Of a DNA stretch of 64,000 nt, positions 32,054-46,779 are shown piece after piece. The notes beneath the pieces were generated by a model. It was given only the letters and a program-made list of their open reading frames with translations. It did no database searches and was not told where the DNA came from. Position 1 is the stretch's first letter; each line of letters begins with the position of its first letter. The position numbers and the translations under genes were made by a program. The DNA is from Phycisphaerae bacterium (GTDB lineage Bacteria; Planctomycetota; Phycisphaerae; Sedimentisphaerales; Anaerobacaceae), in assembly GCA_017993835.1 (NCBI GenBank), contig JAGOLX010000001.1:124001-188000 (forward strand), written 5' to 3'.

Positions 32054-32151
32054 TCCTGCATCCGGCGTCAAGATGATGCCGCATCGCTATGAACACAAAT
32101 CCTATTGCGATAGTATAGATGACACAGATGAAAGGATCTGTGGAGGTTCAC

Positions 32152-33804
32152 ATGAGTGTGGTAGGTGTTCTGCGGCGTGTAGTCGCAGCCATTTTGCTGA
32201 TCGGGATTGGGCTGCTGGGGGGATATTGGCTTGGCATATCCTCGTGGGCGGGCAGCGCGGACGAGGTCCGTCCTCAAGCCGCGGATGCAGGCTCGCAGCG
32301 GTGGTATTGTTCGATGCACCCACAGATTATCCGGGATCGGCCGGGATTATGCCCGATCTGCGAGATGGAGCTGATCCCGATGCCGGAGAACATCGTGGCG
32401 GAGGAGCGTCCTCGGGAGTTGACGGTCTCCGAGGCTGCTGCAAAACTGATGGATGTCCAGACCTCCCCGGTCGAACGGAAGTTCGCCGCAAGCGAGATCC
32501 GCATGGTCGGCAAGGTGCAGTATGACGAGAGCCGGATCAAGTACATCACCGCCTGGGTCGCGGGCCGCCTGGATCGCCTGTTCGTCGATTTTACCGGGAC
32601 TACCGTCCGCCAAGGCGACCACCTCGTGTCCCTGTACAGTCCCGACCTGATCAGCGCACAGGCAGAGCTGCTCCAGGCCGCGAGGGCGGCCCAGAAGGCG
32701 AGTGAGGCGGCCCCCCAATACCTGACCAACTCCGCTGCAGCAAACCTCGACGCCGCCCGCGAGAAACTCCGGCTCCTCGGATTGACCACTACGCAGATCG
32801 AGGAGATCGAGCGTTCGGGCGAGCCCCTGACGCATCTGACGATCTACTCTCCGATTGGGGGAGTGGTGATTCGGAAGATGGCCAGCGAGGGCATGTATGT
32901 CCAGACCGGCACGCAGATCTACACGGTGGCCGATCTCTCGCAGGTCTGGATCAAACTGGACGCCTACGAGTCGGACCTGGCGTGGATTCGCTACGGCCAG
33001 CAGGTGCAGTTCACCACGGAATCGTACCCGGGTGAGACCTTCCGCGGGTGGATCAGCTTCCTCGATCCGGTCCTCGACCCGATGACGCGGACGGTCAAGG
33101 TTCGCGTGGAGGCGCCCAATCCCGACGGGAGGCTCAAGCCGGAGATGTTCGTCCGGGCCGTGGTGTCATCGCGAATCGCCCAGGGCGGCAGGGTGATGGA
33201 ACCCGAGATGGCGGGCAAGTGGATCTGCCCGATGCATCCCTCGATCGTGAAATCTGAAAAGGGGGCCTGCGACATCTGTGGCATGGACCTGGTGACGACG
33301 GAGTCGCTCGGTTACGTGACGGCGTCGGCCCCCGAGCAGCCGCCCTTGGTGATCCCGGACACGGCGCCCTTGATCACCGGCAAGCGGGCGGTTGTGTACG
33401 TGCGGGAACCCGATGCACGGACGCCGACGTTCGAGGGGCGCGAGATCGAGCTGGGTCCCAGGGCGGGGCGTTACTATCTTGTCGTCTCCGGGCTGCAAGC
33501 AGGCGAGCAGGTCGTGACCAGCGGCAATTTCAAGATCGATTCGGCCCTGCAGATCGAGGCTCGACCGAGCATGATGAATCCGCAGGACGTTGCCGGGTTG
33601 TCGTCTGCTCTGTCGGCGGGAATCGAGCAGAAGACGTGCCCGGTCATGGAGGGCAACCCCATCGATCCGAACATCTTTGTCGAGTACAAGGGCAAGCGGC
33701 TGTATTTCTGCTGTCGGGGCTGCGACAAGAAGTTCCTGGCGGACCCGGAGAAATACGTCGCCAAGCTGCCGCAGTTTCAGAAACAAGGAGATCCCAATGA
33801 ATAA
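32152..33804 (+). CDS. cusB: Heavy-metal RND periplasmic adaptor (CusB-like) with two metal-binding modules and a C-terminal YHS domain
   Basis: 550 residues. A signal-anchor (about 5-28) is followed by a heavy-metal-binding module (WYCSMHP near 52, ICEMELIPM). The adaptor core comes next (barrel-sandwich and hairpin, 95-330; RLFVDFTGTTVRQGDHLVSL and FRGWISFLDPVLDPMTRTVK). A second metal-binding module (WICPMHP near 357, CDICGMDLV) is placed unusually between the beta-barrel and the membrane-proximal domain. A YHS domain (CPVMEGNP near 496, YFCCRGCDKKFL) ends the chain. GGAGG (32142-32146) fixes the ATG at 32152 rather than 32119. It works with the TolC-like and CusA proteins in Cu/Ag-type export. 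The two last codons overlap the YHS lipoprotein start. Confidence 0.9.
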   Translation: MSVVGVLRRVVAAILLIGIGLLGGYWLGISSWAGSADEVRPQAADAGSQRWYCSMHPQIIRDRPGLCPICEMELIPMPENIVAEERPRELTVSEAAAKLMDVQTSPVERKFAASEIRMVGKVQYDESRIKYITAWVAGRLDRLFVDFTGTTVRQGDHLVSLYSPDLISAQAELLQAARAAQKASEAAPQYLTNSAAANLDAAREKLRLLGLTTTQIEEIERSGEPLTHLTIYSPIGGVVIRKMASEGMYVQTGTQIYTVADLSQVWIKLDAYESDLAWIRYGQQVQFTTESYPGETFRGWISFLDPVLDPMTRTVKVRVEAPNPDGRLKPEMFVRAVVSSRIAQGGRVMEPEMAGKWICPMHPSIVKSEKGACDICGMDLVTTESLGYVTASAPEQPPLVIPDTAPLITGKRAVVYVREPDARTPTFEGREIELGPRAGRYYLVVSGLQAGEQVVTSGNFKIDSALQIEARPSMMNPQDVAGLSSALSAGIEQKTCPVMEGNPIDPNIFVEYKGKRLYFCCRGCDKKFLADPEKYVAKLPQFQKQGDPNE

Positions 33805-34126
33805 ACGAACGAGATTCCTCGCAAGGGCCGCGGCGTTCATCCTCGTGATGCTGGCGGCGACGATAGTCTTTGGCGGCTGTTCCAAGAAGCAGCCGACGCA
33901 GGAAAAGCCCGTCGCGGCAGGGCAGGCCTCTTCGGCCCAGCCGGCTTTGGAGACGGTGGCGATCGAGCAGAAGACCTGTCCCGTCATGGAGGGCAACCCG
34001 ATCAACCCGGACATCTTCGTCGAGTACAAGGGCAAGAAGGTCTACTTCTGCTGCAAAGGGTGCCCGGAGAAGTTCCTGGCGAACCCGGAGAAGTACCTCG
34101 CCAAGCTGCCTCAGTTCAAACCCTAG
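33797..34126 (+). CDS. YHS-domain lipoprotein (periplasmic metal-binding)
   Basis: 109 residues with a lipoprotein signal ending in VFGGC and a linker. The YHS domain (CPVMEGNPINPDIFVEYKG, then YFCCKGCPEKFLANPEKYL) is nearly the same as the C-terminal domain of the preceding CusB, which shows a recent domain duplication. YHS domains bind copper or other soft metals, so this is probably a periplasmic chaperone feeding the pump. It overlaps cusB by 8 bp. Confidence 0.88.
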   Translation: MNKRTRFLARAAAFILVMLAATIVFGGCSKKQPTQEKPVAAGQASSAQPALETVAIEQKTCPVMEGNPINPDIFVEYKGKKVYFCCKGCPEKFLANPEKYLAKLPQFKP

Positions 34127-34185
34127 GACTCGCAGGCGGCGTTGAGTGAATACGTGACAATGAGCGCCTCAGTGGGGATGCAGGT

Positions 34186-37100
34186 ATGGTAGACCGGGTC
34201 ATCCGATTCTGCCTAGAGAACAAGTTGGTTGTTGCCCTCGTGGTGGTGGCCGTCTTGGTGTGGGGCGTTATGGTTGCCCCATTCGACTGGGAGGTTCCAG
34301 TGTTGCCCCGATCCCCTGTGTCGGTGGACGCAATTCCCGATGTTGGGGAGGTGCAGCAGATCGTATTCACGGACTGGATGGGACGCTCCCCTCAGGATGT
34401 CGAGGACCAGATCACCTACCCACTGACTGTATCCCTGCTGGGTGTCCCCCGCGTCAAGACGATCCGTAGCTACTCGTTCTTCGGGTTTTCCAGCATCTAC
34501 GTGATCTTCGACGACTCCACCGATTTCTACTGGTCGCGGAGCCGAGTGATCGAGAAGCTCAGCGGTCTGCCGGCTGGCACGCTGCCCGCCGGGGTCAAGC
34601 CGACCCTCGGACCGGATGCAACCGGGCTGGGGCAGGTCTTCTGGTACACGCTGGAAGGGCGCGACCCGAACGGTAGCCCGGTCGGCGGATGGGACCCCGA
34701 GGAGTTGCGGAGCATTCAGGACTGGTACGTTCGCTATGCCCTGGCCAGCGCGGAAGGGATCAGTGAGGTGGCATCCGTCGGTGGCTTCGGGCGGGAATAC
34801 CAGATCGACGTCGATCCGGATGCCATGCGGGCCTATCACGTCGGCCTGGATGAGATCGTCAAAGCCGTCAAGGCGTCCAACGTCGATGTTGGCGCCAGGA
34901 CCATCGAGATCAACAAGGTCGAATATGTGATCCGAGGTCTGGGCTTCATCAAGCACATTGAGGACATCGAGAAGACCGTCGTAAAGGTCAATGACAATGT
35001 CCCCATCACGGTGAAGGATGTAGCCAGGGTTTCGCAGGGTCCGGCGCTGCGGCGGGGGGCGCTCGACAAGAGCGGCGCCGAAGCCGTGGGCGGGGTCACC
35101 GTCGTTCGCTACGGCTACAATCCCCTGGCGGCCATCAAGAACGTCAAGGAGAAGATCGAGGAGATCTCGCCCGGATTGCCGCAGAAGACCCTGGCCGACG
35201 GGGCCGTGTCCAAGGTGACGATCGTGCCGTTCTACGATCGCACCGGCCTGATCCACGAAACCCTCGGCACGCTTGATTCAGCCCTGACGGAGGAAGTGCT
35301 CATCACGATCATTGTGGTGATCATTATGGTCTTGCACCTGCGCAGCTCGGTCCTGATCAGTGCGCTGTTGCCGCTGGCGATTCTGATCTGCTTCATCGCG
35401 ATGAAAACGTTCGGCGTCAGCGCCAACATTGTGGCGCTGTCCGGCATCGCTATCGCCATCGGAACGATGGTGGACATGGGCATCATCATTTGCGAGAACA
35501 TCCTGCGGCACCTGAATGAAGCCGATGAAGGCGAGAACAAGCTGGATGTTGTGTTCCAAGCTTCCTCCGAGGTGGGCAGTGCGATCCTGACGGCCGTTTC
35601 AACAACCATCGTGAGTTTCCTTCCCGTGTTCACGATGACCGGGGCGGAGGGTAAACTCTTCAAGCCGCTGGCGTTTACCAAGACGTTCGCGTTGCTTGCG
35701 TCGATCATCGTTGCTTTGACCATCATCCCGCCCGCGGCCCATATCCTCTTCACCAGGGAGGTTGCCGTCGGCAGAATCAAGCGCTATGTGCTGGCGAGCC
35801 TGCTGTTCGGCCTGGCCGTCGCGGCCGGACTGCTCCTGGCGTGGTGGATCGGTCTGCTCGTCGGCGTCATCGCGATGTATCATCTCTCGCACGATCATAT
35901 TCCCTCTCGGGCCCGCGCCTGGCTGCCGATCCTCGCCAACGTTCTGGCCATGGTCTTTGTTGGCATCATCTTGACGAGCCACTGGCTGCCACTGGGGTTG
36001 GGACACGGGTTCGGGTCAAACCTTCTCTTCGTCATCGCACTGATTGGAGGGTTGCTGATTCTCTTTCGGATCTTTCAGCATTTCTATCCTCGCATTCTGC
36101 GCTGGTGCCTGGCGCACAAGCTCGCGTTCCTTTCGATTCCATGCCTGCTGGTCGTCCTGGGCGCGATGGTCTGGCTGGGATTTCCTCGAGTGTTCTCCTT
36201 CGTTCCCCTGGGGCTGCGAGCCAATCGTCTGTGGGCTGCCGGTGCACGGACCTTCCCAGGACTGGGCAGAGAGTTCATGCCGCCACTGGACGAGGGCTCG
36301 TTTCTCTACATGCCGACGACAATGCCGCATGCTTCCATCGGTGAAGCGATGGATGTGCTTCGCAAGCAGGACATGGCTTTTCAGGCGATCCCGGAAGTCG
36401 AATCCGCTGTGGGCAAGATCGGACGGGTGGAGTCGGCTCTGGACCCGGCTCCGATCTCCATGATCGAGACCGTCATCAACTACAAATCCGAGTACATCAC
36501 CGATGAAGCAGGCCATCCGATTCGCTTCAAGTGTGACGAGGCAAACGGCCGATTCGCACGTGACGCACACGACAGACTGATTCCCGATCCGGCCGGCCGT
36601 CCGTTCCGGCAATGGCGCGACCACATCCACAGTCCTGAGGGCATCTGGGATGAGATCGTCAAGGCTGCGGAGATTCCAGGAACGACCAGCGCCCCCAGAC
36701 TCCAGCCGATTGCCGCACGCATGGTGATGCTCCAGAGCGGTATGAGAGCCCCCATGGGCGTCAAGGTGCGAGGGCCCGACTTGGAGACCATCGAGAGTGT
36801 GTGTCTGCAGATCGAGCGGTTTCTCAAGGAAGTGCCCGGCGTCGAGCCCGGTGCAGTCGTTGCCGACCGGATCGTGGGCAAGCCGTACCTCGAAATCGAG
36901 ATCAATCGCGATGCCATTGCCCGCTACGGCATCAGCATTCAGCAGGTGCAGGATGTGATCGAGGTCGCCATCGGCGGCAAGCGCATCACGACCACTGTCG
37001 AGGGACGCGAGCGCTATCCCGTCAGAATCCGCTATCTGCGCGAGTTACGAGACGACATGGAGGGACTTGAGAAGATCCTGGTGCCCGGGTCTGGAGGCGT

Positions 37101-37944
37101 GCAGATCCCCCTGATCCAGCTTGCGGACATTCGGTACGTGCGCGGGCCCCAGGCGATCAAGAGCGAGGACACCTTTCTGACTGGGTACGTCGTGTTCGAC
37201 AAGAAACCGGGGTATGCCGAGGTCGATGTGGTCGAGCAAGCGCGGGACCACTTGCAGGCCAAGATCAACTTGGGCGCACTGCACGTCCCGCAAGGCGCGC
37301 ACTACGTGTTTGCGGGCAGCTACGAGAATCAGATCCGGGCACAGAAGACGCTTGCAGTAGTGATTCCACTCGCCCTGTTCATTATCTTCTTGATTCTATA
37401 TCTGGAGTTTCACGCTGTTTCGACGACTACGCTTGTATTCTCGGGAATTGTGGTGGCTTGGTCGGGCGGATTCCTCCTGATCTGGCTGTATGGGCAACCA
37501 TGGTTCCTGGATTTCAATGCGTTCGGCGTCAACCTGCGAACACTCTTTCAGGTTCATCCGATCAACCTGAGTGTGGCGATTTGGGTCGGTTTTCTGGCCT
37601 TGTTTGGAATCGCTTCGGATGACGGCGTTGTCATGGGGACCTACCTGGAGCAGACGTTTCGCGCGAGACCGACGCGAAATAAGCAGGAAATTCGCGATGC
37701 AGTTGTCGCCGCCGGCACGCGACGGGTGCGTCCATGTCTGATGACCACAGCGACGACGATTCTCGCGCTGCTGCCGGTGTTGACTTCCACCGGTCGGGGC
37801 TCGGACATCATGGTCCCGATGGCTATCCCCTCCTTTGGGGGCATGGTGATCGAGATCCTCACGATGCTCGTCGTGCCCGTGTTGTACTGCTGGATTCGGG
37901 AGATCCAAGCCGCACGGTCTCCCGTGACGACGGGCGCACCGTAG
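34186..37944 (+). CDS. cusA: Heavy-metal efflux RND transporter, CusA-like (long form)
   Basis: Inner-membrane proton-driven pump of 1252 residues; classical CusA has about 1050. Family marks: IPDVGEVQQIVFTDWMGRSP near 48, LTVSLLGVPRVKTIRSYSFF, AIAIGTMVDMGIIICENILR (the TM4 acid residues, about 425-440), REFMPPLDEGSFLYMP near 700, and GIASDDGVVMGTYLEQTF near 1145. Methionines at MPTTMP and in MVMLQSGMRAPMG suit Cu/Ag transport. Extra length comes from an added membrane-rich stretch after TM6 (about 525-650), an insert around DEAGHPIRFKCDEANGRFAR, and one before the last helices. The gene lies 60 bp after the YHS lipoprotein and is convergent with the usher gene. Confidence 0.93.
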   Translation: MVDRVIRFCLENKLVVALVVVAVLVWGVMVAPFDWEVPVLPRSPVSVDAIPDVGEVQQIVFTDWMGRSPQDVEDQITYPLTVSLLGVPRVKTIRSYSFFGFSSIYVIFDDSTDFYWSRSRVIEKLSGLPAGTLPAGVKPTLGPDATGLGQVFWYTLEGRDPNGSPVGGWDPEELRSIQDWYVRYALASAEGISEVASVGGFGREYQIDVDPDAMRAYHVGLDEIVKAVKASNVDVGARTIEINKVEYVIRGLGFIKHIEDIEKTVVKVNDNVPITVKDVARVSQGPALRRGALDKSGAEAVGGVTVVRYGYNPLAAIKNVKEKIEEISPGLPQKTLADGAVSKVTIVPFYDRTGLIHETLGTLDSALTEEVLITIIVVIIMVLHLRSSVLISALLPLAILICFIAMKTFGVSANIVALSGIAIAIGTMVDMGIIICENILRHLNEADEGENKLDVVFQASSEVGSAILTAVSTTIVSFLPVFTMTGAEGKLFKPLAFTKTFALLASIIVALTIIPPAAHILFTREVAVGRIKRYVLASLLFGLAVAAGLLLAWWIGLLVGVIAMYHLSHDHIPSRARAWLPILANVLAMVFVGIILTSHWLPLGLGHGFGSNLLFVIALIGGLLILFRIFQHFYPRILRWCLAHKLAFLSIPCLLVVLGAMVWLGFPRVFSFVPLGLRANRLWAAGARTFPGLGREFMPPLDEGSFLYMPTTMPHASIGEAMDVLRKQDMAFQAIPEVESAVGKIGRVESALDPAPISMIETVINYKSEYITDEAGHPIRFKCDEANGRFARDAHDRLIPDPAGRPFRQWRDHIHSPEGIWDEIVKAAEIPGTTSAPRLQPIAARMVMLQSGMRAPMGVKVRGPDLETIESVCLQIERFLKEVPGVEPGAVVADRIVGKPYLEIEINRDAIARYGISIQQVQDVIEVAIGGKRITTTVEGRERYPVRIRYLRELRDDMEGLEKILVPGSGGVQIPLIQLADIRYVRGPQAIKSEDTFLTGYVVFDKKPGYAEVDVVEQARDHLQAKINLGALHVPQGAHYVFAGSYENQIRAQKTLAVVIPLALFIIFLILYLEFHAVSTTTLVFSGIVVAWSGGFLLIWLYGQPWFLDFNAFGVNLRTLFQVHPINLSVAIWVGFLALFGIASDDGVVMGTYLEQTFRARPTRNKQEIRDAVVAAGTRRVRPCLMTTATTILALLPVLTSTGRGSDIMVPMAIPSFGGMVIEILTMLVVPVLYCWIREIQAARSPVTTGAP

Positions 37945-37953
37945 ACCCACAGG

Positions 37954-40900
37954 TCATTCCTTGCTGCTGTCCGGAGGGGGCTCCGCCTTCTTCTGCAGGA
38001 TTGCGACGAAGTCCGGCTGTTCGATCTCGACGAACTCTTCTCTTGTGGCGGCCACTTCGACGGTGCGCTCCGATTCGGCCAGTTCGTGAAGCGAGGGCAA
38101 GGTCTTGGGGTCCACACGAAGGACGTACCGGCCGGGTTTGACGTCCCCGAGATAGTAGCTGCCGTCCTGTCCCGTGATGGACTCGGCCGCCAGAAGGCCG
38201 GACTGGGGATTGTGCAGGGAGACCCGCACGCCGCAGGCCGGGTGTCTCGTCAGCGGGGCCGACTGCTGCACGTTCTCTGCCACGCCATCGAGGACAGTCG
38301 CAGTGATGTCATGGGCTTCGGCGCCGGCGGCATTGGGGTCGGGAGCGTTCGGATCGACGGTGACAACGCGCCCAACCATGGAAATCAGCGGTGCGACGCT
38401 CAGATTCACTTCCGTCAGACTGTCCCTATAGAGCTTCGCCTTCTGTGTTCCATGGGTCACTGTATAGATGGCTGGAATGGTGTCGGGATCGAGGTACACC
38501 TGGACTTCCGGCGTGTTCGGCCGGGCGGACAGGATGTAGTAGCCCTTCTTGTCCGTCAGGACACTGAGATTCTGGCCCAGGCAGACCTTGACGTCGGGCA
38601 CCCCGGGTTCATCGCCGTCTGGGAGATGGTTGCCGTTGTAGTCCAGGAAAACCTTGCCATGGACGGCGCCATAGGCGGTTCGCACCCGGCTTTCGTTGAT
38701 GTTGATCATCCGTTTCTGGTGTCGGGAGTAGAGCTGTTTGATGTTCAGGGACAGGAGAAACGCGTAGTCGCCCTGTCGGTACTCGCCGGTCGCACTGACG
38801 TAGTTGAACCCCACGCGGTCGAGGAGATACTCGCCTCGGAGGCGGAATCCGTATTCGTCCGATCCGGCCTCGTCCGAGAGCTCTTTGAGGATCTCGGTGC
38901 GGAGACGCCAGGGGTGTCTGGGCCGGTCGATCTTGAGATCGTGAACCACGGACAGTGTCTCCTCGGCCTCGGTGTCATTGTAGATGAGACTGACCGTGTT
39001 GTTGGCGTTCAGGGTCTTGCGGAGCGTCCAGTACTGCGAGGGTCTCAGGACTCGTGGGGCGTGTCGAAGCCTCAAGAGGGACAGAAAGCGGTCGTCGTCG
39101 TTCACGGACAGTTCCTCGCCCAGAAACACCTGGCCATAGAGATTCAAATCCCGTCTCAGGGCGGTTCGTATGCTCAGTTCCGTCAGTATTCTCGGCTCGT
39201 CCTCGGTGCTCACGTCCAGGAGGTGAAACCGGCTCCCCAGGGTGACGCGAGGCAGCGCCGTTGTCGAAGCACCGATGTTCTGATAGCTCGCCTGTGTCGT
39301 TTCAGCCATCTCGCCGTCAAGGTTGTCGCGGATCCATCCGATGCCGCCCTCGACAGTCCACTTCCTGTGGAGTGCCCACGAGAACCCGGTTTCTCCGCCT
39401 CGACGGTCGCACACATCCGGATCGGTGCCGTCGAAGTAATCGGATCCCAGGTTCAGCAGGTCGAGATCCAGGCTGAGCTTCTGCATCGGGAGGTACTCGG
39501 CCCGCGTGCGGATCGCCACGCCGTCATACTCGTCCCGTCCCTGTCCCTGTCCCTGGCTGGCGGCCATGTTGCCTGAGAGGATCAGATTGTCAAACGGCAG
39601 ATACGAGAGGGTCGTTCCCGCGTGCCCGCTCGATTCGGGATAGCTTCGGTCGTCCGAGTCGTTGTCCTTCTCCAGGTATCGGTGGTGGTGATCCTCCTCG
39701 CAGGCCAGGACGATGCCCAGGCTGAGTCGGTCGCTCACTCCGTGCAGCAGACGGGCCCCGCTGATATGCCCGTAGAAATCGCCGGCGTCCAGACATTCAT
39801 GGTCGGTCGTATCGCCTTCCCGTTTGGTCCCCACGAGCCCGAGGTAGGCGGTGCGGCCTTTCGGCAGCAGTTGGGGAGTGCCGACAATCGACTTCTCCAC
39901 GCGAATCTCGTTGCCGTCCGGCTCGCGGATCACGATCGTGACCTCGTTGAGAATCCCCGAGGGCAGGTCGACGTCGTCGAAGCGATACGTGCCCATCCCC
40001 GGAGGGGCGTCTGCCTCCGGACGCACGGTTTGGACGTCGATGGTCCTGCCGTTGAGCTGTAGTTCCACCGTGGCATCGATCGGCGCCGGGCCCTCGAAGA
40101 TGTGGGGCTGACCGAAGTACTGGCGCAATCCCAGGTTGGATTTGTCGGCCTTGAGTTCCTCGGCCGTCCAGCCCGCCAACCCGTTGATCCTCACGCCCGT
40201 CGCGTTGAAGGCCGGGTATACCAGATCGCTCAGGCCGAACGTCGAGTCTCCCACTGTGATCTCGGCGGAGCGCCAGCGATGAACCCACTCGAACCAGTCC
40301 GCCTCGGCCACGTAGGGATCATCGTTGGGCCATGCCCACCCTTCCGTGTTCGACCAGGTTCGATTCGGATGGGAGATTCGGATCTTGTACTGCCCGTCGG
40401 ACCAGTTGCCCCAGAGCGTCTCGCTGGGGCCGGCGATATTGATCACACGGGACTCCGACGTGGAGTTCTCCTGCGACGTGTTGCGTCGCCAACTGTAGCT
40501 GGGATGCCACTCGACCTGAGCGAATTGCAGCAGATCCCCGCTTCGATCTGCTGGCGGCAGGGCTTCGGGCAGATCCATCTCGATGTACTGGGTCTCGGCG
40601 GAGAGCAGAGACCTCCCCGTCCGGGTCTTCCAGATGCTCAGCTTGCGATCCAACTGGATGCGGTATTCATACAATTGGTCGTTCCACACCAGTTCCATGT
40701 CGAGAATCTCGGAGAGGTCCTCCGGCGGGATGTAGATGTCGGGCTTGAGCGTGATTTCCGAGACTGCCTGTCGGAACTCCAACGGGCGTGTCTGACCCTT
40801 GATCCGGATCTGTCCGTTCGGGACGTCCAGTTCCACCTCGCTGCCGCCTTCCGGCGTGAACTTCAGAATGCCGCCCTGCTCGTCGATGGCGACTCGGAAT

Positions 40901-41376
40901 GTGCGGAGCGTACGCAAGAGGGGCAACAGACGTCTGCCGTCTGAGAGGACAAGGGAGTCCATGTCGTCGACCTGGAGCCGTTCGACGTGCCGCCGCCCGC
41001 GCACGACGAAACCGACCAGCTCCGTGGTCGCCTCGGGACCGGTGTTCTGAGAGTTGGGATCGGGTACCACGGTGACGGCAGCCGTCATCTCGGGCTCGGG
41101 CTCTGGCGGCAGGGGGACTGTCGGGTAGGCGGGCGCGAACTCCTGTGGCTCCTCCATCGCTGTGCCGACGAGGGCGGAGGGCACGCAGCTCAGATCTACG
41201 ACGACCCAGTCGCAGTCCGTCGGGGCTGTTGCGGAGCGGGCACCCGAAACCTCATCGGCAGACACAACATCCTCACATTGCCCTGCGGCCGGCGGAACCG
41301 AAGACAACAGACACACGGCTGGGGCAAACAAGGCGCACAAACCAACGCACAGACCGACAAGGCGTCTGTTCGTCAT
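37954..41376 (-). CDS. Fimbrial usher-like outer-membrane protein (chaperone-usher)
   Basis: 1140 residues with signal peptide (LVGLCVGLCALFAPAVCLLS). The diagnostic part is the plug region near 430: GPAPIDATVELQLNGRTIDV, then GTYRFDDVDLPSGILNEVTI and the REPDGN motif, as in PapC/FimD-type and CS1/archaic ushers. Flanking strand-rich sequence fits the 24-strand barrel. Near 905 a Cna-B/SdrD-like domain follows (VHGKVFLDYNGNHLPDGDEP), and near 1048 a carboxypeptidase-regulatory-like domain. These replace the usual short C-terminal domains, resembling ushers of the alternate/archaic clades. It lies 5 bp after the chaperone gene on the same strand. Confidence 0.82.
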   Translation of the reverse strand: MTNRRLVGLCVGLCALFAPAVCLLSSVPPAAGQCEDVVSADEVSGARSATAPTDCDWVVVDLSCVPSALVGTAMEEPQEFAPAYPTVPLPPEPEPEMTAAVTVVPDPNSQNTGPEATTELVGFVVRGRRHVERLQVDDMDSLVLSDGRRLLPLLRTLRTFRVAIDEQGGILKFTPEGGSEVELDVPNGQIRIKGQTRPLEFRQAVSEITLKPDIYIPPEDLSEILDMELVWNDQLYEYRIQLDRKLSIWKTRTGRSLLSAETQYIEMDLPEALPPADRSGDLLQFAQVEWHPSYSWRRNTSQENSTSESRVINIAGPSETLWGNWSDGQYKIRISHPNRTWSNTEGWAWPNDDPYVAEADWFEWVHRWRSAEITVGDSTFGLSDLVYPAFNATGVRINGLAGWTAEELKADKSNLGLRQYFGQPHIFEGPAPIDATVELQLNGRTIDVQTVRPEADAPPGMGTYRFDDVDLPSGILNEVTIVIREPDGNEIRVEKSIVGTPQLLPKGRTAYLGLVGTKREGDTTDHECLDAGDFYGHISGARLLHGVSDRLSLGIVLACEEDHHHRYLEKDNDSDDRSYPESSGHAGTTLSYLPFDNLILSGNMAASQGQGQGRDEYDGVAIRTRAEYLPMQKLSLDLDLLNLGSDYFDGTDPDVCDRRGGETGFSWALHRKWTVEGGIGWIRDNLDGEMAETTQASYQNIGASTTALPRVTLGSRFHLLDVSTEDEPRILTELSIRTALRRDLNLYGQVFLGEELSVNDDDRFLSLLRLRHAPRVLRPSQYWTLRKTLNANNTVSLIYNDTEAEETLSVVHDLKIDRPRHPWRLRTEILKELSDEAGSDEYGFRLRGEYLLDRVGFNYVSATGEYRQGDYAFLLSLNIKQLYSRHQKRMININESRVRTAYGAVHGKVFLDYNGNHLPDGDEPGVPDVKVCLGQNLSVLTDKKGYYILSARPNTPEVQVYLDPDTIPAIYTVTHGTQKAKLYRDSLTEVNLSVAPLISMVGRVVTVDPNAPDPNAAGAEAHDITATVLDGVAENVQQSAPLTRHPACGVRVSLHNPQSGLLAAESITGQDGSYYLGDVKPGRYVLRVDPKTLPSLHELAESERTVEVAATREEFVEIEQPDFVAILQKKAEPPPDSSKE

Positions 41377-41381
41377 ACGCT

Positions 41382-42332
41382 CTATCTGCTGCTAGTGACA
41401 CTTCCCTGTGTCTGTGCCTGGCTGTTCCCCTCCGTGGGATCCTGGGGTTGAGGCTTCGGGATTGCATCCGACGCCGGCTGCACGGTCGGACCGGCAGTCT
41501 CCGTGGCTTGCACGGGCGCCTGGGGCCACGTGACCGCGACTTCCTTCACCAACGGTTGCTCCAGATGGACCGCACTGAAGGTGACTCTGACGCGGCATTC
41601 TCCCTGGGGAATGGGGGTTTCGATCTCCTTTGTCAGCCATCTTTGTGCGCCCCGGAGCACGTACCCCGTGCCCGTCGGGCCCCGGTCGAGCACCGTGCCG
41701 GCCTTGTCCAGAATCTCATAGTCGCCCTTGATGCCGAGTCGCCCGTTGCCTGTCGAGGCGACCAGGGTCTTGAGAACGATGGCTCCTTTCTCGATTTCCA
41801 CCAAAACGTCCTTCACCTGACCCTGATAGGAGGTCTTGCCGACCGTTCCGAAGATAGGAGCCAGGATGGTCGAAACGGTCTTGAGTTTCACGGAACGGCC
41901 GGACTTCTCATCGTTTGCGACGATCTCATTGGTTGCCAGAGACTCGAGTTCCATCGCCGCCCACCATTCGCCCTCGACGAGCGGACCCTTGGTGACTACG
42001 GCAAAGCGGACCGCCCGTTGTGTGTTTGGGGGGAGCGTCAGCTCTCGCGGGTTGAACCGGATATACGGCGCCAGCGAGTAGTCCCCCTTCAGACATCTCC
42101 GTAGTCCGCCTTTCTCCGTGTAGACGAAGTGAACGGCGTTGATTCGGAACCGTTCCTCCGTGTTGCCGAGATTCGAGATGAGAAACGTGCCGGCCGGCCG
42201 GCCTTCATCCAGGTTCACCTCGACGTAGGCCGGCTTGATGCCGATGTTCGCTCGGAGCGTTCCCGCCAGCAGGCAGACGCCGAGCAACGTTGCCGCTCTC
42301 CATCCAACAATCAGTTCATGTGCGAATTGCAT
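41382..42332 (-). CDS. PapD-like periplasmic pilus chaperone
   Basis: 316 residues. A signal peptide (GWRAATLLGVCLLAGTLRA) leads into a PapD-type first domain: NIGIKPAYVEVNLDEGRPAG, FLISNLGNTEERFRI, then IRFNPRELTLPPNTQRAVRF, the conserved NPxxLxLxPxxxQxVR strand used for donor-strand contact. The second domain follows (LVASTGNGRLGIKGDYEIL; GECRVRVTFSA). The last 50 residues are a Pro/Gln-rich tail (QPQDPTEGNSQAQTQ) not usual for chaperones. It sits between the pilin-like gene and the usher, as expected for a chaperone-usher locus. Confidence 0.78.
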   Translation of the reverse strand: MQFAHELIVGWRAATLLGVCLLAGTLRANIGIKPAYVEVNLDEGRPAGTFLISNLGNTEERFRINAVHFVYTEKGGLRRCLKGDYSLAPYIRFNPRELTLPPNTQRAVRFAVVTKGPLVEGEWWAAMELESLATNEIVANDEKSGRSVKLKTVSTILAPIFGTVGKTSYQGQVKDVLVEIEKGAIVLKTLVASTGNGRLGIKGDYEILDKAGTVLDRGPTGTGYVLRGAQRWLTKEIETPIPQGECRVRVTFSAVHLEQPLVKEVAVTWPQAPVQATETAGPTVQPASDAIPKPQPQDPTEGNSQAQTQGSVTSSR

Positions 42333-42440
42333 GGTTTATTGCCTCGGTTGACTGGTCAAACAATCGTAATTGGCCCGGGCCTGGAAGACTGCTCAGTTCA
42401 TCACATTCGAATCCGTTTACAGCACACGACAGAACGTCAC

Positions 42441-42995
42441 TTACACGCCAGGAATCATCGCGGTCAGCATGACATAACCGCTGTATTCGCCGGTGGGCAG
42501 TTCGGGATCGGGCTGATTCCACGTCACCGTTACGTCCACTTCCTGGCTGAAGTGGCCCTTCTGCCCGCTTTCGAAATTGCCGACCTCGGTGGTCGCGGCG
42601 GGGAACTCCTTGATCATCCCGGTCCCCTCGAATGCCAGATTATTGTCGCCGCCTTTGGTCTCGTTGCCGTTCGCGGGCTGGACGGTCACACCGGCATCCT
42701 GGGCCACGGGGATCGTGGCCTCGGCGGTGAGAGAATCACCCTTGTACAGATCGGTGACCGCGACTTGCAGATCGATCGCTTCGACGTTCGCATCAACCCT
42801 GAAGGTGATTGTTCCATCGAACGGACCGGTCTGGATCTGGCCCAGTTCCACCGTAGCATCGACCACGGCGACCGCGACGTTCGCAACAACTTCCACATAC
42901 ACGTGGCTGACCGCCTCGCCCGATGTATCGGCAAAGCAAATCCCACTGACCAACAACAACGACGTCAGAATTGCCAACAGTTTCGCTCTCATCAT
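42441..42995 (-). CDS. Pilin-like fimbrial subunit
   Basis: 184 residues beginning with a signal peptide (MMRAKLLAILTSLLLVSGIC, cleaved after FA). The mature protein is all-beta in character, has no cysteine, and ends YSGYVMLTAMIPGV, like the last strand of fimbrial subunits. The alternating stretch HVYVEVVANVAVAV at the mature N-terminus could be the donor strand. AAAGGAG stands 5 bases before the ATG at 42995, preferred to 43046. It is first in the operon, 108 bp before the chaperone, consistent with the major subunit being made in excess. Confidence 0.68.
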   Translation of the reverse strand: MMRAKLLAILTSLLLVSGICFADTSGEAVSHVYVEVVANVAVAVVDATVELGQIQTGPFDGTITFRVDANVEAIDLQVAVTDLYKGDSLTAEATIPVAQDAGVTVQPANGNETKGGDNNLAFEGTGMIKEFPAATTEVGNFESGQKGHFSQEVDVTVTWNQPDPELPTGEYSGYVMLTAMIPGV

Positions 42996-43592
42996 TTGAC
43001 TCCTTTCACAACAGTCCTTCTCTATTCGATCTGGCGCACGGGCCAATTACGATTTCTGCCTGGGGACACTGCGTCACGAGAGCTCTGTTGCTCCGTCCCG
43101 CGATCCTGTCGGCGAGTTCCCCCTATGGGGACATCAAAAAGTACGGAGATAGATCCGCAATGTCCATGATACGAGACTGCAAAACCGTCTCGACACTTCG
43201 CGATCCGGGAATACACCCTCGCACTGGGCCGCGATTACAGACCTTCCTCGTGTTCCTCTAATAGGAGGCACCACGATATCGATTCACTGAAAGGTGCAAC
43301 TGTCGGGCGACTGCCTGACTGTAATGCGACAATAAAGATCCGATTAGGTGAGATGTTTCATCGCCACTTCCATCCTCCCTGGGCAGCTCCTGGTTTGTCA
43401 CCAGGTGAGTTCCCCAACTCTCCAGTCCGTTTCTTCGCAGACACTACATGTGTCCGCGTGTCCGATAATCTGAACCTATATGGCTGTTACGAACAAGTCA
43501 AGAGGAAAAATAAAAAAATTCGCACACTTGCCTGTTGTCGTCTTGCTTCCGTCTTGGCGGGAAATCATTGGTCCTCGACGAATCCCGGAGAA
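42996..43592. other. Intergenic region upstream of the pilus operon
   Basis: About 600 bp with no gene I can support. It should hold the promoter of the pilus operon on the minus strand, but no clear -35/-10 pair was found. An A-rich run (AAAAATAAAAAAATT, about 43506-43520) reads as a T-tract downstream of the tRNA on the minus strand and could help end its transcript. Confidence 0.4.
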
Positions 43593-43667
43593 TCGGGGCG
43601 AGTGGACTTGAACCACCGACCTCTTGCACCCCATGCAAGCGCGCTAGCCAAACTGCGCCACGCCCCG
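43593..43667 (-). tRNA. tRNA-Pro (anticodon GGG)
   Basis: The minus strand folds as a full cloverleaf. The acceptor is CGGGGCG/CGCCCCG (7 perfect pairs), the D-stem GCGC/GCGC, and the anticodon stem CTTGC/GCAAG with loop ATGGGGT (anticodon GGG at 43632-43630). A 5-nt variable loop, a T-arm with TTCAAGT and discriminator A follow. Total 75 nt; the CCA end is not encoded. Confidence 0.95.
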
Positions 43668-43846
43668 AAGCGTGCATGCATTGTAGTGCTCCAGGGACTT
43701 GGCAACAAGTGTTTTTTCTGAAAATCGCTCGCAAAGGCCGGGGAACCGCCAGGGAATGCGACGGGGGCCTCAGATCTCCTCGCTGCGTGCGATGGCGAGG
43801 GACCGGCAGCCGGACCCCTCGCGCGAAAAAAATCTCGGGAGAGGGC

Positions 43847-43876
43847 TTGACGAAGTTAGCTGTGCCTAACTATACT
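43847..43876 (+). promoter_or_regulatory. Promoter of the dtxR-feoA operon
   Basis: TTGACG (43847-43852), an 18-bp spacer and TATACT (43871-43876). Initiation would be near 43883, downstream of the ATG at 43879, which argues for the later start at 43909. Confidence 0.75.
43853..43874 (+). promoter_or_regulatory. Predicted metalloregulator operator (DtxR-type) of dtxR-feoA
   Basis: The palindrome AGTTAG-N6-CTAACT lies exactly between -35 and -10, so a bound repressor would block RNA polymerase. It resembles half-sites of the DtxR/IdeR box (TTAGG...CCTAA). A closely matching site precedes feoB (44669-44690; 17 of 22 positions the same). Confidence 0.7.
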
Positions 43877-43908
43877 GAATGCACAACAGGATCGTGGTTG
43901 GATTTGTG

Positions 43909-44388
43909 ATGGCCGTAGAGAAATCGCGCAAACTCAGCGCCTCTCTGGAGGACTACCTGGAGGCGATCTTCAACCTCGCCGACGATGCCGGCGGGGCTCG
44001 CAGCAAGGATATTGCCGCCTCGCTGGGAGTGGCCAGATCCTCTGTCACCGGGGCACTGCAATTGCTTTGCGATAAAGGACTTGCGAATCATGAGCCCTAC
44101 GGGTGTGTTACGTTGACCCCACGAGGCGAAGCGGCGGCCCGTGAGGTCGTTCAAAAGCACGATGTTCTGACGTCCTTCTTCGCCGACGTGCTGGGCGTCG
44201 AACGAGAGATGGCGCAGCGGGCGGCCTGTCAGGCGGAGCACGCTCTGGGGCCGGAGATCATCGGCCGGCTGTTGAGCTTCATCGAGTACGTCGCCGCCAG
44301 CGGCCGCGCTGGACGCGACGTCGCGAGCGAGTTTCGGCTCTTCCATGGCAGAAGGGTAGTCAAACGGGTAAAGGATTCGGTGCAGTGA
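43909..44388 (+). CDS. DtxR-family iron-type metalloregulator
   Basis: 159 residues: a winged HTH (1-62, SKDIAASLGVARSSVTGAL as recognition region) and a metal/dimer domain (63-140). Presumed ligands are visible: SLEDYLEAI (Asp and Glu as in MntR), KHDVL (His), and AACQAEHALG, where the Cys matches the primary-site Cys102 of DtxR and EH matches Glu105/His106. It lacks the C-terminal SH3/FeoA-like domain of DtxR. Expected role: repression of iron uptake when Fe(II) is plentiful, and autoregulation through the operator in its own promoter. GTG at 43906 or ATG at 43909 can start it. It is translationally coupled to feoA (TGATG). Confidence 0.9.
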   Translation: MAVEKSRKLSASLEDYLEAIFNLADDAGGARSKDIAASLGVARSSVTGALQLLCDKGLANHEPYGCVTLTPRGEAAAREVVQKHDVLTSFFADVLGVEREMAQRAACQAEHALGPEIIGRLLSFIEYVAASGRAGRDVASEFRLFHGRRVVKRVKDSVQ

Positions 44389-44636
44389 TGGACAGAGTCG
44401 TTGCGGAGCAAAACGTGGTCAGATCTCTATCGACAGTGGCCGACGGGGATACGGTTCGATTGGTTCAGGTGCGGGCCGGACGCGGGTTGAACAGCCGGCT
44501 GGCGTCGATGGGGTTCGTCCCTGGCGCCGCGATCCGGGTGGTCAGCAACAACCACCCCGGCCCGTTCGTCGTGGTCATCAAGGACGTCAAAGTCGTGTTG
44601 GGCAGGGGAGTCGCCCAAAAGGTCCTGATTCAGTAG
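44388..44636 (+). CDS. feoA: Ferrous iron transport protein A
   Basis: 82 residues, one SH3-like FeoA domain (VRLVQVRAGRGLNSRLASMG, then FVPGAAIRVV and IKDVKVVLGRGVAQKVLI). A cytoplasmic helper of FeoB. The ATG at 44388 overlaps the dtxR stop (TGATG); a GTG 3 bases earlier is an alternative. It is followed at once by an intrinsic terminator, so feoB is probably a separate transcript. Confidence 0.92.
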   Translation: MDRVVAEQNVVRSLSTVADGDTVRLVQVRAGRGLNSRLASMGFVPGAAIRVVSNNHPGPFVVVIKDVKVVLGRGVAQKVLIQ

Positions 44637-44639
44637 GTG

Positions 44640-44662
44640 CGCCGGCTCCCGGCGTTTTTTTT
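44640..44662 (+). terminator. Intrinsic terminator after feoA
   Basis: Stem CGCCGG (44640-44645), loop CTC, stem CCGGCG (44649-44654), followed by eight T residues (44655-44662). Confidence 0.85.
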
Positions 44663-44668
44663 GCGGAC

Positions 44669-44690
44669 AAGTTCGTTGTGGCTAACTTTG
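44669..44690 (+). promoter_or_regulatory. Predicted metalloregulator operator before feoB
   Basis: AAGTTCGTTGTGGCTAACTT matches the dtxR operator at 43853 in register and keeps the outer inverted repeat AAGTT/AACTT. It lies between the feoA terminator and the feoB start, where its promoter must be. Confidence 0.6.
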
Positions 44691-44718
44691 TGAACCTCGT
44701 TGTCGGGTGTTTTTTCCT

Positions 44719-46779
44719 ATGACCCAACCGATTGTCGTGGCCCTGGTCGGTAACCCGAACAGCGGCAAGAGCAGCCTGTTCAACATGATTACCGGTTCCC
44801 ACCAGCACGTGGGCAACTACCCCGGCGTGACCGTCGAGAAGAAGGAAGGCTACTGCACGCACGACGGCTGTGACATCCGACTCGTCGATTTGCCGGGGAC
44901 GTACAGCCTCACCGCCTATTCCGCGGAGGAGCTTGTCACCCGCCGTTTCATCCTGGAGGAGAGACCCGATGTCGTCGTGGACGTTGTCGACGCGTCGAAC
45001 ATCGAACGCAATCTCTACCTGGGCACGCAGCTCATCGAGATGAACGTGCCGCTGGTGTTTGCGTTCAACATGAGCGATCTGGCCAAGCGACGGGGTCTGG
45101 AGTTCGACCTCGATCAGTTGTCCTGCCTGCTGGAGGCGAGGATCGTCCCCACCGTCGGCAACAAGGGCCAGGGCGGCGGTGCCCTGTTGGAGGCGATCGT
45201 CCGAACCGCTCGCGAGGGCAGAAAGCCCCGCATTCACGGCCTCTGCTACGGCGCCGAGATCGAAGAGGAACTGGCTCGGGTCGAAGCGGCCGTCCTGGAG
45301 CGGGAAAGAGGACTCGCGGACCGGTACGGCTCGCGATGGGTGGCCTTGAAGCTCCTCGAACAGGACGACGAGACTCTCGCGAAGATCCAGAGTCCTGAGG
45401 TCCACGACGCCGCGAGCAAGAGCGTGGGGCGCCTGCGGAGCATCTTTCGTGACGAGCCGGAGATCGTGCTCGCCGATCGACGGTATGGATTCATCTCCGG
45501 CGCCTGCCAGGAGACGATCAGGAGTTCCGTCGAGCGCCGACATGACGCCAGCGATCTCGTCGACGCCATCGTTACCAACAAGGTCTTCGGCCTTCCCATT
45601 TTCCTTGTGCTGATGTACGCCGTGTTCTGGCTGACTTTCACTCTGGGCGAGTTCCCAATGATCGGGTTGGAGCGGCTGTTCGGATGGCTCGGCGCCGCAG
45701 TATCCGGGCTCTGGCCCGAGGGCTGTGACAGTTGGCTGCGTTCGTTGCTGGTGGATGGCGTGATCGCCGGGGTCGGAGGCGTGGTCGTGTTTCTGCCCAA
45801 CATCCTGCTGTTGTTCCTGGCGATCGCGCTACTGGAGGACACTGGATACATGGCCCGCGCCGCCTTCGTGATGGACCGGATCATGCACAAGATCGGCCTG
45901 CACGGCAAGAGCTTCATCCCGATGCTCATTGGGTTTGGCTGCTCGGTCCCCGCGATCATGGCCGCCCGCATCTTGGAGAACCGTCGAAACCAGCTCACCA
46001 CGATCATGGTCATTCCGCTGATGAGCTGTGGCGCGAGACTGACGATTTACTCGCTGATTATCCCGGCCTTCTTTGCCCCCGCCTTGCGAGGGCCTGTGAT
46101 GTGGCTGGTCTATCTGATCGGCATCCTCCTGGCGGTGACGTGCGCCAAGCTGCTGCGTCTGACCGTCTTCCAGGGCGAGACGCTGCCGTTTGTGATGGAA
46201 CTGCCGCCGTATCGCATGCCCACGCCGAAGTCCGTCCTGATTCACATGTGGCAGCGGGGGTGGATGTTCCTGCAAAAGGCGGGCACCGTGATCCTGGGGA
46301 TTTCGGTCGTGCTGTGGGTCCTGGCCAGCTTCCCCAAGCCGAGTCCCGAGCGGTTGGGGGGCTTGGACGGGGCCCAGGCCCGACAGGTGGCGTTGGAGCA
46401 GTCCGTCATGGGGCGCGTGGGCCGATTCGTGGAGCCGGCGATCCGGCCGTTGGGATTCGACTGGCGGATCGGCACGGCCCTGATCGGCGCGGTCGCGGCC
46501 AAAGAGGTGTTCGTCTCGCAATTGAGCATCGTGCACGCGGCGGGTTCCGACGAGGACACCGATGCCCTGCGCAAGAAGCTGCGGGCGAACTACACACCCC
46601 TGGTGGGGTTCTGCATCATGTTGTTCTCGTTGATCTCCACGCCGTGCGTCGCCACGGTCGCGATGACGCGACAGGAAACAGGTTCGTGGCGATGGGCCGC
46701 CTTTCAATTCGTCGGTCTGACGGTTCTGGCCTATGTGATCACCTTGGCGGTGTTCCAAGTGGGCAGAATCTGGATTTGA
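44719..46779 (+). CDS. feoB: Ferrous iron transporter B (GTPase permease)
   Basis: 686 residues. N-terminal G domain: G1 GNPNSGKSS (about 11-19), G3 DLPGTYSL (about 59), and the NMSD (G4-like) segment at 120. A helical GDI-like domain follows. The membrane part has the Gate and FeoB-C signatures: MARAAFVMDRIMHKIGLHGK, FIPMLIGFGCSVPAIMAAR (the GFGCxVPA motif with the conserved Cys), VIPLMSCGARLTIY, and IGTALIGAVAAKEVFVSQL. This is the main Fe(II) uptake route of anaerobes. The start at 44719 (MTQPIVVAL) is preferred to the GTG at 44707. The following minus-strand gene is convergent. Confidence 0.96.
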   Translation: MTQPIVVALVGNPNSGKSSLFNMITGSHQHVGNYPGVTVEKKEGYCTHDGCDIRLVDLPGTYSLTAYSAEELVTRRFILEERPDVVVDVVDASNIERNLYLGTQLIEMNVPLVFAFNMSDLAKRRGLEFDLDQLSCLLEARIVPTVGNKGQGGGALLEAIVRTAREGRKPRIHGLCYGAEIEEELARVEAAVLERERGLADRYGSRWVALKLLEQDDETLAKIQSPEVHDAASKSVGRLRSIFRDEPEIVLADRRYGFISGACQETIRSSVERRHDASDLVDAIVTNKVFGLPIFLVLMYAVFWLTFTLGEFPMIGLERLFGWLGAAVSGLWPEGCDSWLRSLLVDGVIAGVGGVVVFLPNILLLFLAIALLEDTGYMARAAFVMDRIMHKIGLHGKSFIPMLIGFGCSVPAIMAARILENRRNQLTTIMVIPLMSCGARLTIYSLIIPAFFAPALRGPVMWLVYLIGILLAVTCAKLLRLTVFQGETLPFVMELPPYRMPTPKSVLIHMWQRGWMFLQKAGTVILGISVVLWVLASFPKPSPERLGGLDGAQARQVALEQSVMGRVGRFVEPAIRPLGFDWRIGTALIGAVAAKEVFVSQLSIVHAAGSDEDTDALRKKLRANYTPLVGFCIMLFSLISTPCVATVAMTRQETGSWRWAAFQFVGLTVLAYVITLAVFQVGRIWI

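Follow-up and report, generated by a model that had tools for sequence, protein, structure and literature searches.

Ushers of chaperone-usher pili have been reported from Proteobacteria, Spirochaetae, Cyanobacteria and Deinococcus-Thermus, with no Planctomycetes among them (PMC4827864); a second account names Proteobacteria, Cyanobacteria and Deinococcus-Thermus (PMC4654587), and Planctomycetes are omitted from the distribution in PMC10104325 as well. One proline is the sole residue invariant across the chaperone superfamily (PMC4654587), and a conserved pilin disulphide is a feature of the archaic clade (PMC4654587, PMC10104325). Here we describe a three-gene operon of Phycisphaerae bacterium (Planctomycetota; GCA_017993835.1) in a 64,000-nucleotide stretch of its 6.37 Mb genome (G000:C85:124001-188000; hereafter the window, whose numbering is used below for this locus). 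We consider it highly probable, from profile comparisons and gene order, that the operon encodes a divergent chaperone-usher pathway assembling and exporting a putative thin fibre of immunoglobulin (Ig)-like subunits.

The three minus-strand genes occupy exactly positions 37954-42995. A preliminary description of the locus had placed a pilin-like subunit, a PapD-like chaperone and an usher there in assembly order, and the open reading frame list confirmed the arrangement, with gaps of 108 bp between pilin and chaperone and 5 bp between chaperone and usher. The pilin gene (42441..42995) starts, as described, at the ATG at 42995 with AAAGGAG just ahead. Its 184-aa product is predicted to have a signal peptide, an N-terminal hydrophobic strand that is the candidate donor strand, and an Ig-like beta sandwich, judging from the AlphaFold2 (AF2) model, Foldseek and the family alignment. 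The periplasmic chaperone (41382..42332, 316 aa) has two Ig-like domains and matched archaic and DUF4402-type chaperones in profile comparisons. The outer-membrane usher (37954..41376, 1140 aa) was identified from profile-profile comparison, Foldseek, a domain map and a tree.

The usher provided the strongest evidence. In profile-profile comparison, the planctomycete usher profile matched classical ushers with E 3.6e-5 over 702 columns, while the controls LptD, BamA, FhaC and a TonB-receptor fragment gave 0.02, 0.12, 0.23 and 0.38, respectively. Ushers of the DUF4402-type operons described below matched far more closely (E 2e-23, 794 columns). When the profile was pooled with these relatives it matched classical ushers (E 1.8e-13), archaic ushers (1.1e-13) and EcpC (4.5e-4), compared to 0.3 and 0.022 for reversed targets. 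The homology spans the N-terminal domain (NTD), the whole barrel, the plug and the C-terminal domains CTD1 and CTD2, both in the profile comparison and on alignment to FimD with its usual domain limits; a failure to match over the barrel, which the preliminary description would have counted against its reading, did not occur. The mapping begins after a Pro/acid-rich N-terminal extension (residues ~34-117; 41026..41277, minus strand, as are all parts of the usher) that is poorly conserved and without counterpart in the ushers compared. It continues through the NTD (residues ~118-257, with 129-257 aligned to FimD; 40606..41025), the expected dock for the chaperone-subunit complex, in which 108 of the 125 FimD NTD positions were mapped, and the plug (residues 406-503; 39868..40161). 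The barrel extends to residue 890. The Pfam Usher model matched residues 429-523 only (17.4 bits, E 0.0022; gathering cut-off 27.1 bits), and the plug motifs noted earlier, PIDATVELQLNG and REPDGN, are both present inside this stretch. The strongest Pfam matches of the protein are at its C-terminus, SdrD_B at 908-955 and CarboxypepD_reg at 1045-1089. The preliminary description had taken this end to carry Cna-B-like and regulatory-like domains; the matches are real, but since the two regions align with FimD CTD1 (residues 891-997; 38386..38706) and CTD2 (998-1140; 37957..38385), they are the ordinary C-terminal domains of an usher, and we rejected the view that they are acquired extras.

Searches of 72,556 plasmids brought in relatives from better-known systems. 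With the usher core, tblastn at E<=10 returned 25 matches at E 1-8, and 23 of the 25 are annotated as fimbrial ushers; one further match (H10) equals these but has no gene annotated at that position. The matches are individually insignificant; as a set they appear hard to explain otherwise. The pilin gave no match at E<=10. The chaperone matched loci in Polaromonas, Sphingopyxis, Deinococcus and Pseudoalteromonas, which are small operons of one or more DUF4402 or similar pilins, a chaperone and a third protein annotated as ‘carboxypeptidase regulatory-like’, ‘SdrD B-like’ or hypothetical. The proteobacterial DUF4402 operons (L056, L058, L060-L064) are themselves chaperone-usher-like systems, with ushers annotated under the first two of these names. 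PF00577 (Usher) was silent on all seven DUF4402-type plasmids and detected the classical ushers of two control plasmids; among the ushers of five relatives its best E was 6e-6. PapD_N (PF00345) had no match in four planctomycete chaperones. The Polaromonas chaperone passed that model (25.3 bits against a cut-off of 23), five of seven relatives matched it at E<=1, and PapD was the sole match of the Polaromonas protein in the PDB at E<=10. A literature search returned no mention of DUF4402, nor of ushers combined with these domain names, within a coverage that left out most subscription papers and preprints.

The chaperone homology, which covers both Ig-like domains, was likewise clearest in profile comparisons. 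The planctomycete chaperone profile matched Deinococcus-type (E 1.9e-14), DUF4402-type (4.5e-13) and archaic (1.9e-4) chaperones, and a pooled profile matched archaic (9.4e-14) and classical (1.2e-6) chaperones, compared to 0.2-0.3 for reversed ones. The superfamily-invariant proline (Pro95) is kept in all 30 aligned chaperones. The columns of the classical carboxylate anchor, Arg8 and Lys112, hold Tyr/Phe and Pro in the planctomycete proteins. The signature Arg of non-classical chaperones (Arg89 of CsuC) is Trp in four of four planctomycete and four of four Deinococcus-type chaperones (Trp124 in the window), and is kept in all archaic, DUF4402-type and EcpB chaperones aligned; the aligned CsuC segment shows the same YR context at this position. 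With all of these columns replaced, the planctomycete chaperone has neither known carboxylate anchor. The ends of the planctomycete pilins are variable (AMIPGV, AMVL, AMILPTATPGS) and do not follow the aromatic-plus-one pattern (QYQ, EYN) of FimA-like and most DUF4402 pilins, and we infer that the loss of the anchor may be tied to the missing aromatic-plus-one end. The Pro/Gln-rich C-terminal tail reported earlier is real (41385..41519, minus strand); a low-complexity tail also occurs in the Deinococcus relatives, is shorter in G043 (a metagenome-assembled genome of another family of the order) and occurs in none of the proteobacterial ones. DUF4402-type and Deinococcus-type chaperones also resemble Gram-positive WxL-interacting proteins, which hints at a common two-Ig-domain ancestor.

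The small protein is the candidate pilin by its position, size, signal peptide, N-terminal strand and fold class, an assignment we make with moderate confidence and one that its sequence leaves unproven. Its AF2 model reached a predicted local distance difference test score (pLDDT) of 70, with the N-terminal strand of low confidence, and the top Foldseek matches were to CFA/I CfaB (probability 0.99-1.00). DUF4402 had no Pfam match in the pilin and was not significant in profile comparison, and the alignment of planctomycete pilins showed no conserved Cys pair. A likeness to FimA-type pilins (E 8e-5) disappeared after signal-peptide trimming and was rejected.

The preliminary description had recognised only one subunit and suggested that the fibre might be a homopolymer. 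We found a second, divergent pilin-family gene outside the window at G000:C85:8999-9553 (L045), ~157 kb from the operon. Its orthologues in G004, G001 and G007 are 48-60% identical; those in G004 and G001 also share its neighbouring genes, and the one in G007 is present in a genome where the usher search found none. In G043 the second copy adjoins the operon. The orthologues in congeners lie at L080 5554-6114, L075 1104-1661 and L081 5174-5566. The existence of a second, conserved subunit gene makes a two-component fibre more likely than a strict homopolymer, which we no longer propose; the window pilin would probably be the main subunit and its distant homologue probably a minor or tip-proximal one. 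Between its chaperone gene and its second pilin, G043 has a further gene (L009 4851-5549), whose product is secreted and ends in a sorting-like tail that resembles PEP-CTERM on visual inspection.

The subunits also bear on what the pathway would build. Coat- or capsule-like layers are built by some chaperone-usher systems, such as those of Yersinia F1 and the Myxococcus spore coat, and a true chaperone-usher pathway might here make a surface layer of that kind instead of discrete pili. The single main subunit in the operon and the failure to recognise a tip adhesin would fit a coat. The second conserved subunit speaks against it, and planctomycetes, including a Phycisphaerae isolate, have been described with fimbriae or polar fibres, of unstated composition (PMC8882080). 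We regard a coat as unlikely.

The arrangement recurs in relatives. The pilin, chaperone and usher genes also co-occur in two congeners and in G043, there with the usher gene in the opposite orientation, and a third contig from the genus begins within the chaperone gene and continues into the usher; this recurrence argues that the arrangement is not due to chance. Because the full-length usher drew C-terminal-only matches, the order was searched with an alignment of the core alone; usher orthologues came up in G043 and in four of the nine genomes of the genus, making five of the 161 genomes of the order. Outside this genome, a search of the phylum with the full usher gave only SdrD_B/CarboxypepD-type C-terminal matches, and the chaperone profile gave no further case in the Planctomycetota sample. 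A first scan of genome contigs returned nothing, and a second returned only the same four relatives. PF00577 detected the E. coli control but matched nothing in the genome of the window, nor in any of 392 Planctomycetota genomes. DUF4402 was absent from 199 Planctomycetota genomes, a weak absence as the control genomes were silent too. The patchy occurrence of the usher would suit a recently captured or decaying cassette with no function here. Against this, the window, the congener G006 and G043 each carry the three genes intact (the contig of G004 ends within its usher); the five planctomycete ushers place the genus together with G043 outside it, which fits long residence; and the core of the inverted repeat described below has been kept exactly while adjoining DNA drifted. 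We therefore consider such a cassette very improbable.

The preliminary description had noted that chaperone-usher pili are mainly known from Proteobacteria and had called for a phylogeny against the archaic and alternate clades. The locus is more than a familiar proteobacterial type in a new host. In the usher tree the planctomycete proteins formed one long-branched clade that grouped with the ushers of the DUF4402 and Deinococcus types (SH-aLRT 88) and away from the archaic, classical and EcpC ones; in the chaperone tree they joined the Deinococcus type (92). The placement outside the archaic clade is read against an archaic reference of Deinococcus only, and may yet shift when archaic sequences are sampled more widely. 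The DUF4402-type operons on plasmids of Polaromonas, Sphingopyxis, Novosphingobium and Pseudoalteromonas share with the planctomycete locus the order subunit, chaperone, usher, and their ushers are also unseen by Pfam Usher and have SdrD_B/CarboxypepD_reg-like CTDs. They differ in their pilins, most of which match DUF4402 and most of which close with an aromatic plus one residue, neither being true of the planctomycete pilins, and in their chaperones, which keep the signature Arg where the planctomycete ones carry Trp. A second Deinococcus type (strains NW-56, D7000, D. psychrotolerans and AB2017081) shares the Trp for Arg, the low-complexity chaperone tail and ushers with SdrD_B/CarboxypepD_reg CTDs; its gene order differs, with a small gene between chaperone and usher, and its small proteins have no detectable similarity to the planctomycete ones. 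This type lies on plasmids L057, L059, L094 and L095 and is distinct from the archaic locus L089 also present in NW-56.

Archaic (sigma) systems, namely Csu, CupE and the Deinococcus radiodurans MP1 plasmid locus, share with the planctomycete chaperone a Pro in the region of strand G1, at the site of the classical Lys; the planctomycete system differs from them in having no Arg89-type anchor and no pilin disulphide, and neither tree places it within the archaic clade. Classical FimC/FimD and PapD/PapC share the usher architecture NTD, barrel with plug, CTD1 and CTD2, whereas the planctomycete chaperone is without the Arg8/Lys112 pair, the pilins are without a penultimate Tyr, and the chaperone similarity appears only with pooled profiles. 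With the alternative (alpha) systems CFA/I and ECP, the planctomycete locus shares the match of the pilin model to CfaB and the absence of a conserved Cys pair; the pooled usher match to EcpC is comparatively weak, and EcpB retains the signature Arg. By the features tested, the system does not appear to be a member of a known clade; it appears to belong to an unrecognised group also present in Alpha-, Beta- and Gammaproteobacteria with DUF4402 pilins and in Deinococcus.

Several results weigh against a chaperone-usher identity. None of the components reaches the gathering threshold of a Pfam usher, PapD or pilin family, and direct sequence searches of the PDB with the three planctomycete proteins returned nothing useful. 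The planctomycete chaperone alone was not significant against classical chaperones (E 0.07-0.21), nor were the pilin profile comparisons with signal peptides trimmed (E 0.04-0.24). The TM-scores of the pilin Foldseek matches were just 0.35-0.46, and no two-domain tip adhesin was recognised. The AF2 model of the usher had a pLDDT of 37, too poor for a three-dimensional reading, and its Foldseek TM-scores were ~0.1, so the search of that model against 350,542 PDB chains, an independent line of evidence for the usher, in which the top four matches were FimD/PapC over 743-792 columns with E down to 5e-9, supports only the order of structural elements and a local match. The Pfam and profile searches suggested in the preliminary description split: Usher stayed below its cut-off and PapD_N found no match, and profile-profile comparison recovered the homology that bears out a chaperone-usher-type system. 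We consider the machinery very likely to be of this kind because of the usher and chaperone homology, the conserved gene trio and the bridging relatives, which include a PapD_N-positive chaperone in the same gene order. The possibility that the large gene encodes an outer-membrane or surface protein unrelated to ushers, endowed with Ig-like and SdrD/CarboxypepD domains and standing beside an Ig-domain periplasmic protein, as in a WxL-interacting-protein-like module, draws on the resemblance of the chaperone relatives to those proteins (E 0.0012, with a DUF916 match) and on the strongest Pfam matches of the usher, but is largely refuted by the full-length usher homology with clean controls and the conserved trio, the WxL likeness mainly covering a fold common to PapD.

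By analogy with the described pathway, the subunits would reach the periplasm via their signal peptides, where the PapD-like chaperone would lend a strand that completes the subunit fold. The chaperone-subunit complex would dock on the usher NTD, and the plug would swing out of the barrel of roughly 24 strands. The incoming subunit would then displace the chaperone strand with its own N-terminal strand by donor strand exchange, with CTD1 and CTD2 holding the growing fibre.

The pilin gene is enclosed by an inverted repeat with 19-nt arms of 95% identity, one at 43036..43054, 40 nt ahead of the pilin ATG, and the other at 42362..42380, 60 nt past the pilin stop and ahead of the chaperone gene. 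G006 and G004 share the window core CGGGCCAATTACGAT in both arms, a 15-nt core identical in three species; the arms of G043 are unrelated in sequence and still complementary at 14 of 15 positions. The arms in the relatives lie at L007 3185-3199/3883-3897, L008 3770-3785/4466-4481 and L009 3175-3189/3865-3879. Arms of 15-19 nt were thus found in all four genomes examinable, and in each none of 60 dinucleotide shuffles was as good. No comparable repeats were found at the second pilins, at fim, ecp, yad or elf, or at nearly all DUF4402 and Deinococcus pilins tested; a Pseudoalteromonas pilin has a weak AT-rich repeat (3/60 shuffles as good).

We tentatively favour, at somewhat below an even chance, the explanation that the repeat forms a long-range mRNA stem closing and protecting the pilin cistron. 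RNA folding of the cistron predicts that the arms pair over 15-16 bp in three genomes (probability 0.95-0.97) and at 11 of 15 positions in G043 (0.73), and the G043 arms differ in sequence yet stay complementary; against the stem, compensatory changes are absent among the three congeners. The arms might instead be recombination sites that invert the pilin gene for phase variation, or paired operator sites, both of which we favour less than the stem. Either would account for a 15-nt core that is identical in three species while the DNA between arms and genes has drifted, and for the arm pair having no exact copy elsewhere in the nine congeneric genomes searched. No recombinase gene was noticed nearby and the orientation is the same in all four assemblies, which argues against inversion, and the unrelated arm sequences of G043 argue against operators.

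On the far side of the usher, an RND metal-efflux pair (32119-37944) adjoins it, with a CusB-like protein carrying extra heavy-metal/YHS-like segments and a CusA-like protein, as read from the translations. Beyond the pilin, 43592-46779 holds a tRNA-Pro followed by genes for a DtxR/MntR-like regulator and for FeoA/FeoB-like proteins; in G004, too, the regulator adjoins the pilus operon.

Two features are new here: a chaperone without both known sets of anchoring residues, and matched inverted repeats flanking the pilin gene. A more far-reaching proposal, which is possible but which we think rather more likely to fail than to hold, is that these systems form a separate major branch of the superfamily, in Planctomycetota, Deinococcota and several proteobacterial classes, missed by family models, with a novel chaperone anchor in the planctomycete/Deinococcus arm and a planctomycete pilin repeat acting as an invertible switch or mRNA clamp. 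The chaperone, with its anchor missing, allows the need for carboxylate anchoring to be tested directly. In this locus, the protein fibres described on planctomycete cells, the make-up of which we did not find stated, have a specific candidate. Because ushers of this group go under the labels ‘carboxypeptidase regulatory-like’ and ‘SdrD B-like’, the distribution of the chaperone-usher pathway is underestimated.

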